Positions 12,227-17,294 of a DNA stretch of 64,000 nt are shown here, piece by piece. The stretch is taken from assembly GCF_030734285.1 (NCBI RefSeq), contig NZ_CP132294.1, forward strand, positions 2,790,001-2,854,000. Reading direction: 5' to 3'. Positions within the stretch are counted from its first letter, which is position 1. Every line of letters begins with the position of its first letter. Under the pieces are notes generated by a model. The model was not told where the DNA came from, searched no databases, and was given only the letters and a program-made list of their open reading frames with translations. The stretch comes from Natronococcus sp. AD-5. GTDB taxonomy: Archaea; Halobacteriota; Halobacteria; Halobacteriales; Natrialbaceae. Both the position numbers and the translations under genes were made by a program.

Positions 12227-13270
12227 ATGACGACGATCTACGCCGCGATGCGGGATCGACTGCTCGTCTGCACCGCCGACGCCGACGAGGGCTGGGAGAC
12301 GACCGAACGCCTCGAGGGTCACGACCTCGAGTGCGTCGCCGCCTCATCGGAGGCTCCGGAGCGCGTCTTCGTCGGGACGTTCGAGAGCGGTTTCTTTCGC
12401 TCGACGGACGGCGGCGACTCGTTCGAGCCCCTCGAGACGACCTTCGCGACCGAACTCGAGGAGGGGTACGGCGACGCCGAGAACGTCGAGAGCGACGCCG
12501 TGATGTCGGCGACGATCAGCCCGCACGATCCCGACGTCGTCTACGCCGGGACCGAACCCAGCCGCGTCTACCGCTCCGACGACGGCGGCGACTCCTGGAC
12601 GCACCTCGAGGGACTCGTCGACCTCCCCTCGGCCGACGAGTGGTTCTTCCCGCCGCGGCCGCACACCCACCACGTCCGCTGGCTCGAGGTCGATCCCTTC
12701 GATCCCGATCGGCTCTACGTCGGCATCGAGGCCGGCGCGTTCGTCCTCAGTACGGACGGCGGCGAGCGCTGGCGGGAGCGGCCGTCGGGGGCGCGCCTGG
12801 ACAACCACAGCCTGGCGACCCACGCCGACCGCGAGGGGCTCGTCTACTCGGCTGCCGGCGACGGCTTCGCCGTCTCCGCCGACGGCGGCGAGTCGTGGAA
12901 CCACCCGCAGGACGGCCTCGAGCGCCGGTACTGCTGGAGCGTCGCGCCCGATCCCGGCGACCCGGGATCGGTGCTCGTCTCGAGCGCCAGCGGCGCGAGG
13001 TCGGCTCACACGGCCGGTTCGGCGGAGTCGTACGTCTACCGAAAGGCGGGTGACGCGGCCTGGGAACGTCTCGACGGCAACGGTCTCCCGACGGGCGAGG
13101 GCGTCGTCCGCGCCGTCTTCGCAGCCGGCGCCGACGCCGGCGTCGTCTACGGCGCGAACAACCGGGGCCTGTTCGCGACGCGTGACTTCGGCGACTCGTG
13201 GGAGCGCGTGGAGATCGACTGGCCGGAGGGGCTCGAGGCGCAGGCGCCGCGCGGGCTGGTCGTCGTCTAA
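12227..13270 (+). CDS. BNR/Asp-box beta-propeller protein
   Basis: 347-aa soluble protein with no signal peptide. Five Asp-box repeats (S/T-x-D-x-G-x-x-W/F) are visible: STDGGDSFEPLE, RSDDGGDSWTHLEG, STDGGERWRERPSG, SADGGESWNHPQDG and TRDFGDSWERVEI, about 55-70 residues apart, forming the sialidase/VPS10-type propeller. The sialidase catalytic Arg triad is not evident, so an enzymatic role is doubtful; intracellular homologues are annotated as glycosyl hydrolase-like without proof. The stop codon is immediately followed by the decayed isomerase. Confidence 0.82.
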   Translation: MTTIYAAMRDRLLVCTADADEGWETTERLEGHDLECVAASSEAPERVFVGTFESGFFRSTDGGDSFEPLETTFATELEEGYGDAENVESDAVMSATISPHDPDVVYAGTEPSRVYRSDDGGDSWTHLEGLVDLPSADEWFFPPRPHTHHVRWLEVDPFDPDRLYVGIEAGAFVLSTDGGERWRERPSGARLDNHSLATHADREGLVYSAAGDGFAVSADGGESWNHPQDGLERRYCWSVAPDPGDPGSVLVSSASGARSAHTAGSAESYVYRKAGDAAWERLDGNGLPTGEGVVRAVFAAGADAGVVYGANNRGLFATRDFGDSWERVEIDWPEGLEAQAPRGLVVV

Positions 13271-13833
13271 CTCCCGAATCGAAACGAGAGACGCTGCTCC
13301 AGACGGGGATCGACGTCGTCGTTCACCTGCCGTTTAGCGTCGATCCCGGCTCTCCCTTCGCGCCCGTCGGGGAGGGCGCCGTCGACGAACTCGTCGCGGG
13401 AATGGATCTCGCCTCGAAACTCGGCGCCGAGCGCGTCGTGTTCCACCCGTCCTCGGACGCCCGGGAACGCGGGTGAACCGCGGACGAGCGCCGCGAGTTC
13501 GTCCACGCGGGACTCGACGATCTGATCCCCGCGGCCCGCGATCGCGGGCTCGAGCCGTGCGTCGAGAACGTCGCCGGGATGAACGAGGCCGAAATGGGGA
13601 GGTGTTCGTCGCGATCGCTTCGGGTGTCGACCAGGTGAAGGTGGCCGATCCGCTCGGCGTGCGCTCGACAGAACCTCCCCGTCGGGATGGGGACCCTCGA
13701 TTTCGAGCCGGCGTTCGCGGGGCTCGCCGACGCCGGCTGGTCCGGGACGGCCACGCTCGAGATCGCGACGCTCGATTACGAGACGATAGCGCTCGGGAAG
13801 CGTCGCGTCGAGGGGCTGGTCGGCTCGAGGTGA
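13271..13833 (+). pseudogene. Sugar phosphate isomerase/epimerase (xylose isomerase-like TIM barrel), rearranged
   Basis: Remains of a TIM-barrel isomerase. The first recognisable residues are SKRETLLQTGIDVVVHLPF, so roughly the first 60 residues are missing. An in-frame TGA at 13474 interrupts ARERG-TADERREF. After the metal-site strand CVENV about 35 residues of the usual barrel appear deleted. Then comes a 69-nt segment whose coding sense lies on the opposite strand (RIGHLHLVDTRSDRDEHLP, with the family's H-x-H/D metal-binding pattern), after which the sense returns with VGMGTLDFEPAF and GKRRVEGLVGSR-stop. No start codon remains. Confidence 0.82.
13596..13680. repeat. 8-bp inverted repeat flanking an inverted 69-bp segment
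   Basis: GGGGAGGT (13596-13603) and its exact reverse complement ACCTCCCC (13673-13680) enclose 69 nt. Reversing the enclosed segment joins codons in frame on both sides (NEAEMGR + FCRAHAERIGHLHLVDTRSD... + HLPVGMG), giving uninterrupted coding sequence. The arms extend imperfectly by one more matching base after one mismatch. Confidence 0.85.
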
Positions 13834-14097
13834 CCGACCGTCGAATCGATCGCTCGGGACGAGACGCGAATTCGAGTCGATCGGTTCTTCACGAAGAATC
13901 GCTCGTAGACGAGTTGTCCGGGAAGAGCGGTCGTCCGAACGCCGCCGCGTTCGGCCTTTCGGGGAGTCGCGTCGACCGCGACCCGACGAGTTTCCGACGA
14001 GTCCGGCTTCGTCCGACCATCTCGTCCCTGCTAACGCCACCTCTATACATTCGACACGCTCAATAATTTTATATTGTTTCACGATTGTTATTTAGTC

Positions 14098-16227
14098 GTG
14101 TCGCGCAATATCCCCCGTCGAACGTTCCTGACCGCCGCGACGGCGGCCGTCGGCGGTACGACGGTCGTAGACTCGATCGAACTCGTCGCAGCCGAATCCG
14201 GTTCCGTCGGCGATTGCGACGCCGATCCCGTCCCGGATCTGGTGTTCAACGAGACCTCGAGTCTGCTTGACGCGAACTACGACCGGCTGAAAGACGACGA
14301 GATCGTCTTCGTCTTCAGCGAGGGGACGGCCGACGCCGGCAGCTACGACGACGAGGAAGTGCCGCTGTGGGCCAAAGACGGCACGATCTACGGCAGCGGA
14401 TCGCTGCTCGTCGACGACGACGAGGACAACGGTCTCGACTACGGGCAGGATGCGGTCCTCCTGAACGTCGTCGACTCGTACGCAGACGGGTCCGGTCACA
14501 TCGTCTACGACGAGTCTGCCGGCCAGGAGTACACCCTTCACGGCCGCTTCTCGAAGTTCCGGGACTGGGTCCGGGAGAACGGGTACTCGATCGAGGCGAG
14601 TTCGGACCTCGCCGAAGGCCTCGTCGACGCGGACGCGCTGCTGGTCACCCTTCCCGGCGAGGAGCACGCGGCCGATCAGGTCGACGCGATCCGGGAGTTC
14701 GCCGCCGACGGGAACCCGGTGTTCCTGTTCAACGAGGCCGCCTCCTGGGACACGGACGTCCTCAACTCCCTCGCGGAACGGCTCGAGCTCGCCTACCGGT
14801 TCGCCGAGGACGAGGTCACCGACGAGCCGGGCTGGGAGTGGGACGACTGGCCGATCACCGGCAACTACGACGACGAGACGTATCCCGAGTACTTCGAGAA
14901 TCGGGAGGGAATCGGCTTCGAACCCGGAACCGAGTACGCCGCCGAGGTCGTCGAGGTCGTCGACGCCGACACGTTCGACGTCCGAATCACCGGCGGCTAC
15001 CACGACGGCGAGGAAGAGCGCGTCCGCCATTTAGGCGTAGATACTCCGGAGACCGGAAGCGCCGACAATAATCCCGACGAGTGGATCGGGATCGAGGACG
15101 AGAAGTGGCTCGACGACTGGGGGAGCGAAGCCGCCGCCTACGCCGAAGACAGCTTCGATGCGGGGGACGCGATCACGTTCTGGGTCGACGAGCGTGAGTT
15201 TCCCCGCGGTAACTACGGCCGACTGCTCGCGTACCACACCTATCCCGAGGACGGCGACGACGCCGACGTCACCTACAACCGCGACCTGATCGAGAAGGGG
15301 TACGCGAAGCCCTACGACACCTCCTTCTCGGAGCACGACCGGCACACCGAGGCGTTCCGGTCGGCCCGCGAGAACGACCGCCGCGTCTGGGCGGAGAGCG
15401 ATCCCGACGCGACCGAAGAGCGGTGGAACCGCGACGTCGAGACCCTCGCGTTCCGGAAGCCGACGAGTGTCGTCACCGTCGACGAGCAACTCGAGAGTCA
15501 CCGAACCGCCGTCTGGGCCGAGCCCTCGGCCGAGCAGGACCTCGGCGACGACGGGATCGCCTACGACGGCGATATTCCGCTCGTCGGCGTCGATTCGGCG
15601 AACCGGATCGCGCTCGTCGGCGGGCTGATGAACGCCGACGCGTTCGAGGACGGCGACGACGAGAACTTCGTCTTCAACGCGAACCTCGCCGACGAACTCT
15701 CGGACGTCGGCCACGACGACCGCTACCTCATCGAGGGCGGTCACGGTCAGTTCGATGTCTCCTACGACTTCGGCAAGGAGGGCAAGGAGACGTTCCTGCG
15801 CTTCCTCGAGGGACTCGACGGGATGGAGTTCCAGGGGATCAACGCGCTGACCGAGGAGTACCTCAACACCGACGAGGGGCACGCCATCGTCATCACGCCG
15901 CCGGCCGGCCGGTTCTGCTACACGGACGCGGAAATCGGCCAGCTTCGGCAGTTCCGCGACGACGGCGGCGCCGTCGTCCTGCGGACCAGCCGAGGCGTCG
16001 ATCCGGAATCGACCGCGATTCTCGACGAGCTGGCCGCGGCGCTCGGGACCGATCTCCGGTTCAACGACGACGCGGTCACCGACTCCGACAGCAACAAGGG
16101 CGGCGCGGACGAGCCCGAAACGTCGAACTTCAACGTCGACCGCGACCTCTTCGAGGCGTACGACCACGACGGACCCACCGGCGACGGTGACGACGATGAC
16201 GACTGCCACCCGCCGGGGCAGTGTTGA
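14098..16227 (+). CDS. Secreted protein with internal thermonuclease (SNase-like) domain
   Basis: 709-aa protein starting at GTG with a Tat-type signal (MSRNIPRRTFLTAATAAVGG). Residues ~45-270 resemble a glutamine-amidotransferase/DUF4350-like fold (VFVFSEGT, DALLVTLPGEEH, GNPVFLFNEA). Residues ~280-430 are a staphylococcal-nuclease domain: VVDADTFDVRI, RVRHLGVDTPETG (catalytic Arg and Glu) and NYGRLLAYH (second catalytic Arg). Residues ~455-690 return to the first fold (RIALVGGLMNAD, HAIVITPPAGRF, FRDDGGAVVLRTSR). The tail is Asp-rich with a final C-x6-C. Likely an extracellular nuclease using Ca. A TTG 24 nt upstream is a less likely start. AT-rich promoter DNA precedes it. Confidence 0.85.
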   Translation: MSRNIPRRTFLTAATAAVGGTTVVDSIELVAAESGSVGDCDADPVPDLVFNETSSLLDANYDRLKDDEIVFVFSEGTADAGSYDDEEVPLWAKDGTIYGSGSLLVDDDEDNGLDYGQDAVLLNVVDSYADGSGHIVYDESAGQEYTLHGRFSKFRDWVRENGYSIEASSDLAEGLVDADALLVTLPGEEHAADQVDAIREFAADGNPVFLFNEAASWDTDVLNSLAERLELAYRFAEDEVTDEPGWEWDDWPITGNYDDETYPEYFENREGIGFEPGTEYAAEVVEVVDADTFDVRITGGYHDGEEERVRHLGVDTPETGSADNNPDEWIGIEDEKWLDDWGSEAAAYAEDSFDAGDAITFWVDEREFPRGNYGRLLAYHTYPEDGDDADVTYNRDLIEKGYAKPYDTSFSEHDRHTEAFRSARENDRRVWAESDPDATEERWNRDVETLAFRKPTSVVTVDEQLESHRTAVWAEPSAEQDLGDDGIAYDGDIPLVGVDSANRIALVGGLMNADAFEDGDDENFVFNANLADELSDVGHDDRYLIEGGHGQFDVSYDFGKEGKETFLRFLEGLDGMEFQGINALTEEYLNTDEGHAIVITPPAGRFCYTDAEIGQLRQFRDDGGAVVLRTSRGVDPESTAILDELAAALGTDLRFNDDAVTDSDSNKGGADEPETSNFNVDRDLFEAYDHDGPTGDGDDDDDCHPPGQC

Positions 16228-16319
16228 GCGGGGAATTAGCGTGACCCTCCGAGACGTCAATCTCGAGAGGCCCAGCCCGGAGAACTGAACGGCGCCGCGT
16301 GGTTCGCCGATCCGTCCGC

Positions 16320-17294
16320 TCAGGAGCGACCGGATCCGGCGACCGAGCGGTTGCTCGAGGGGTGGGATTCGACGGAGAGCCACTCGTAGAGGAGCTGTTT
16401 GGTCGCCTCGCTCGTCCGGACGCCGTCGTGGTCGGTCTCGAGCACGACGTTCTCCGCGCCCTCGAGCACCGGGCTCTCCGGACGAACGAGGAAGAACTCG
16501 TCGTAGCGGCCGCGGATCGTGTAGTAGTCGATCGCGCCGTCGTTCGGCGTCTCGTCGGGCGCGTTGAGTTCGTACAGCGGCTCGCCCGGCGTATCCGCAC
16601 AGGAATGGGAGATGAACCGACAGACCCGGCTCGTCCCCGGCCCTTCCTCGCAGCCGGGCCCGCAGGTCCAGGTGCCGTGGTTCGCGCCCGCGAGGCCGAC
16701 GACGGTCTCGACGCGGTCGTAGCGATCGGGGTGCTCGTCGAGGCCGTCCATCCAGTACCGCAGGCCCGTCACGCCGAGGCTGTGGCCGACCACCTGGACG
16801 CTGTCGGCACCGGTGTACTCGAGGACGTTGTCGACGAACGCGTCCAGTTGCGCGCGCATCTCCTCGTGACTGGCGCCCTCGCGGCCGAAGGTGATCGCCC
16901 AGAGGTCGTCGCCGGCGAAGCCGCGCTCGAGGAGGAAGTCGGCGTGCTCGAGGAAGTCGCAGGCGTCGCGGGTGTTGCCGTGGGCGAAGACGACGGGCGC
17001 GTGTTCGAGGCCGGGATCGGTGCCGTGGAACTCGTGGCCGCCCCAGCCGCCGTAGCCGTCGGTGTCGAACGGTAACTGCGAGTCGTCGGTCCGGTCCCGC
17101 TCGCAGGGGTCGCCGGTTCCGACCTGGAGTCCCGCGAGGTCGTCGTCCGCCTCGAGGGTGTCGGCGGCGGTGGCGGTTCCGGTTCCCGCGACGCCGACGG
17201 CGGTTGCCGCTCCCAGCGCGCCGAGGATGCGGCGCCGGCACGGTCTCGACGGCACGTCCGGTTCGGTCTCGTCTCCGCGCTCGTCCTGTCGCAT
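16320..17294 (-). CDS. Secreted alpha/beta hydrolase, lipase-like
   Basis: 324-aa protein with a Tat-type signal (PCRRRILGALGAATAVGVAG). The mature part is an alpha/beta hydrolase: oxyanion-hole segment PVVFAHGNT, nucleophile elbow VVGHSLGVTG (Ser about residue 165), and a late D/H pair (ETDHDGVRTS). Four Cys in TWTCGPGCEEG...CRFISHSC suggest disulfides, consistent with secretion. It resembles bacterial class-2 lipases and extracellular esterases acting on acyl esters. The start is at MRQDERGDE; the earlier in-frame TTG is unlikely. It converges with the nuclease gene. Confidence 0.88.
   Translation of the reverse strand: MRQDERGDETEPDVPSRPCRRRILGALGAATAVGVAGTGTATAADTLEADDDLAGLQVGTGDPCERDRTDDSQLPFDTDGYGGWGGHEFHGTDPGLEHAPVVFAHGNTRDACDFLEHADFLLERGFAGDDLWAITFGREGASHEEMRAQLDAFVDNVLEYTGADSVQVVGHSLGVTGLRYWMDGLDEHPDRYDRVETVVGLAGANHGTWTCGPGCEEGPGTSRVCRFISHSCADTPGEPLYELNAPDETPNDGAIDYYTIRGRYDEFFLVRPESPVLEGAENVVLETDHDGVRTSEATKQLLYEWLSVESHPSSNRSVAGSGRS

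Follow-up and report, generated by a model that had tools for sequence, protein, structure and literature searches.

The window analysed here, a 64,000-nt stretch of haloarchaeal DNA, contains a sugar phosphate isomerase/epimerase pseudogene in which a 69-bp segment lies inverted between the two arms of a perfect 8-bp inverted repeat. The arrangement is a microinversion in archaeal coding sequence, clean and recent, and it very probably arose as a one-off accident at these short repeats. The best explanation is that the microinversion was single, recent and fixed, and that the gene was already a pseudogene or was becoming one. The event reveals no new system. It is recognisable only by following the protein frame onto the other strand. 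The case suggests that events of this kind can escape annotation pipelines, which would call only a broken gene.

The inverted segment and its borders

The plus-strand isomerase frame extends from position 13270 to a TGA at 13831–13833. The features of the pseudogene are the following:

13270–13833, plus strand: sugar phosphate isomerase/epimerase pseudogene (xylose isomerase-like TIM barrel, PF01261), identified by its Pfam match and by alignment with 21 intact relatives
13474–13476, plus strand: in-frame TGA replacing a family-invariant Trp
13570–13575, plus strand: junction (13572/13573) of a 93-nt (31-codon) in-frame deletion, ENV/AGM
13596–13603, plus strand: left inverted-repeat arm, GGGGAGGT, codons GGG AGG
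13604–13672, minus strand: inverted segment, 69 bp
13636–13638, plus strand: TGA that the inversion introduced into the plus-strand frame
13673–13680, plus strand: right inverted-repeat arm, ACCTCCCC, inside conserved H-L-P-V-G codons

Between 13604 and 13672 the plus strand makes no family sense and has a TGA inside, and the native frame across the segment translates as EAEMGRCSSRSLRVSTR, a stop codon and RWPIRSACARQNLPVGM. The minus-strand reading, by contrast, continues the isomerase frame. When the segment is reverse-complemented, it reads FCRAHAERIGHLHLVDTRSDRDEH in frame, both junctions are crossed without indels, and the full flipped-frame translation becomes EAEMGRFCRAHAERIGHLHLVDTRSDRDEHLPVGM. 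The initial annotation had placed a 69-bp segment between 8-bp inverted repeats at 13596–13680, with a frame that re-inversion makes continuous across both junctions and with minus-strand isomerase sense that includes the metal-binding H-L-H...D...H pattern of the family. Arms and spacer are exactly as it described, the restored frame is confirmed, and the segment holds the motif HLHLVD...DEH.

Profile and alignment results agree with this reading. The score against the PF01261 (AP_endonuc_2) profile, for which the cut-off is 31.1 bits, lies above that cut-off in both orientations and rises from 62.4 bits in the native state to 84.6 bits after flipping. A search with the flipped protein matched the minus-strand segment of the unmodified genome on its own (E = 1.4e-14). 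Alignment of the re-inverted segment with isomerases, a check that the initial annotation had proposed, matched 15–20 of 23–24 residues. The inversion has preserved the length of the segment exactly.

One arm of the perfect repeat lies at each breakpoint. The 8-mer of the right arm is also present in the genes of three relatives, while the left arm occurs in none of the 21 relatives examined and includes AGG, which makes up 1% of the Arg codons in neighbouring genes. Inverted repeats of 8-mers are commonplace, with 478 pairs at 20–100 nt spacing within the 64-kb window. For a given 85-bp span, however, the chance of an 8-bp repeat is about 9e-5, or 0.4% when a slack of ±3 nt is allowed at each end. 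Since the chance at a given pair of positions is so low, the repeats at both breakpoints are meaningful and tied to the breakpoints. The hairpin was also considered, and unusual stability was not found for it (z about −1).

Ancestral orientation and decay of the gene

Intact genes occur in many haloarchaea, including Haladaptatus, Halomicrococcus, Halegenticoccus and Halomarina, and 21 intact haloarchaeal relatives were compared at the codon level. The PF01261 isomerases/epimerases of Haladaptatus, Halomicrococcus, Halegenticoccus and others are homologous to the window copy, with about 55–77% protein identity over the aligned parts. All 21 relatives show the segment uninverted, in the order EM-x-x-F...HLHLVDTR...DEHLPVG or a slight variant of it, and the spacing from EM to HLP is comparable throughout; the inverted orientation is found in none of them. 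This comparison, which the initial annotation had suggested as a way to find the ancestral orientation, identifies the orientation of the window copy as the derived one. Judged by protein homology rather than by near-identical ancestral DNA (the closest relative has about 77% protein identity over this part), the segment is the reverse complement of the ancestral sequence, of the same length and in the same frame.

The isomerase genes of the relatives are intact. The window copy, in contrast, has been truncated and interrupted, has suffered a deletion and is inverted in part. It lacks about 60 N-terminal codons that the relatives have, and the TGA at 13474 interrupts the remaining frame. The 93-nt deletion took out the stretch YYD...FDTSHALL, which holds conserved barrel Asp and His residues; its ENV/AGM junction, judging from the codons of relatives, may carry a short microhomology (TCG). 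In total, 20 N-terminal and 16 internal invariant residues have been deleted, and a complete barrel is absent. The truncation, the stop and the deletion all remain whichever way the 69-bp segment lies, so neither orientation can give an intact enzyme. The initial annotation had noted in general terms that the gene was damaged and had taken this to favour an accidental inversion. This preference is supported, and the damage is worse than it described: the 93-nt deletion and the N-terminal truncation had both been overlooked.

Within the flipped segment, 13 of 13 family-invariant residues are kept, while changes are found at 3 of 44 and 1 of 22 such residues elsewhere. The complete retention indicates that the flip is recent, and flip and decay both look recent. 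The 93-nt deletion lies 23 nt to the left of the left arm, and the two changes may have arisen together in a single complex event.

The same damage bears on the question of a sequencing or assembly artefact. The genome is known from one assembly, which leaves room for such an error. However, the assembly (5.17 Mb) is in two contigs with a completeness of 98.8%, the isomerase locus is single-copy, and three further, independent lesions disrupt the surrounding gene. An artefact is thus most improbable. A second copy of the isomerase gene was sought in the same genome, and none was found.

Origin of the inversion

A phase-variable switch had been offered by the initial annotation as an alternative to an accident. 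In such an intragenic inverton, a recombinase would flip the segment to and fro and thereby switch the protein on and off. The locus does share an invertible-looking segment with phase-variable invertons: inverted repeats mark its borders exactly, the frame is locally open in one orientation and stopped in the other, and the genome contains 21 tyrosine-recombinase family matches, 16 of them over the curated cut-off. Yet both orientations keep the lesions described above and give no functional product, and the 8-bp arms fall below the 10–20 nt repeats that are usual for invertible sites (PMC5903667). Furthermore, the repeat pair occurs only once in the genome at 60–80 nt spacing, and the left arm lacks conservation. 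No tyrosine-recombinase match lies closer than about 0.95 Mb, although enzymes of this kind need not be encoded near their target sites. The switch fails as an explanation and has very little probability; it is just as hard to credit that the segment is still flipping in the population, as an archaeal intragenic inverton using 8-bp repeats on a broken gene.

For the accidental microinversion, the route was probably one of copying rather than of strand exchange. During replication or break repair, synthesis would leave its template at the left short repeat, copy the opposite strand across the 69-bp spacer and return at the other repeat, so that the spacer would be reverse-complemented with length and frame otherwise kept. 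Replication template switching and microhomology-mediated break repair are the candidate routes. It is possible but unproven that the left arm itself arose, or became a perfect match, during the event as a copy of the right arm (arm homogenisation). The absence of the left arm from the relatives and its rare AGG codon hint at this, although even the closest relative is too diverged for the ancestral sequence to be read from it.

Conservative strand exchange between two pre-existing perfect 8-bp repeats, as a one-off event without copying, is a variant of the same explanation that differs in route alone. It would give an identical product, and the exact preservation of length is equally consistent with it. 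However, homologous recombination normally uses lengths far above 8 bp, and none of the relatives has a pre-existing left arm. We therefore regard strand exchange as unlikely, and copying as the preferred route.

Comparable events have been reported in eukaryotes. The microinversions reported between human and chimpanzee all have flanking inverted repeats; these are 3–75 nt long and measure at least 8 nt in 23 of 59 cases (Potapova et al. 2022, PMC8755829), and two routes have been proposed for them, namely template switching and microhomology-mediated break-induced replication (PMC8755829). In yeast, template switching inverts spacers within coding sequence and can leave the two arms with the same sequence (Abraham and Hazkani-Covo 2021, PMC8604942). 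The window segment resembles the primate cases in its exact reverse-complement replacement with inverted repeats at the borders, and the yeast cases in that a spacer between arms is inverted inside coding sequence. It differs from the former in being archaeal, in lying in coding sequence and in its length of 69 bp, as primate segments span 17–33 nt (PMC8755829). The yeast arms exceed 9 bp and enclose spacers of a few bases, whereas here arms of 8 bp enclose a spacer of 69 bp in a dead gene (PMC8604942). A spacer longer than in the primate and yeast cases counts against a template-switch-type explanation, as does the unremarkable stability of the hairpin.

The initial annotation had called the mechanism uncommon and directly seen. 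It is the product that is seen and not the mechanism, and the class of mutation is well documented in primates and yeast (PMC8755829, PMC8604942). Accordingly, this is a new instance and not a new phenomenon. Replication template switching at short inverted repeats is known from eukaryotes and bacteria, and the present case suggests that it may leave its mark on archaeal genomes as well. A search for other microinversions along 51.7 kb aligned with the corresponding region of the closest congener found none. Collinear minus-strand matches to this congener were weak, with E ≥ 0.1 for all except one (the best, 74% over 89 columns, E = 0.002), and they fall within stretches whose plus-strand alignment is good.

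Genomic setting of the pseudogene

The pseudogene has the following neighbours:

12227–13270: BNR-repeat gene, upstream
14074–16227: DUF4350/nuclease-like gene (DUF4350-SNase, with a Tat-like N terminus), downstream

In the closest congener, about 370 bp separate the BNR-repeat gene from a lipase gene, in comparison to about 3.1 kb in the window. Relative to that congener, window positions 13264–16367 (about 3.1 kb, comprising the isomerase pseudogene and the DUF4350-SNase gene) resemble a lineage-specific insertion. The upstream gene is present in 8 of 8 congeners (80–89%); neither the pseudogene nor an isomerase gene was found in any of these eight, and 125 genomes of the same family yielded no intact gene of similar closeness. 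This lineage probably acquired the isomerase gene, which has decayed since.

Plasmids were also considered as a source of close intact copies, and the matches there were distant or partial only. Two plasmids of Haladaptatus halobius, NZ_CP085340.1 and NZ_CP085338.1, carry partial matches that cover 40–53% of the query with 61–65% identity. Their annotations read hypothetical protein and GrpB family protein, and the matches may represent additional relics of this isomerase gene.
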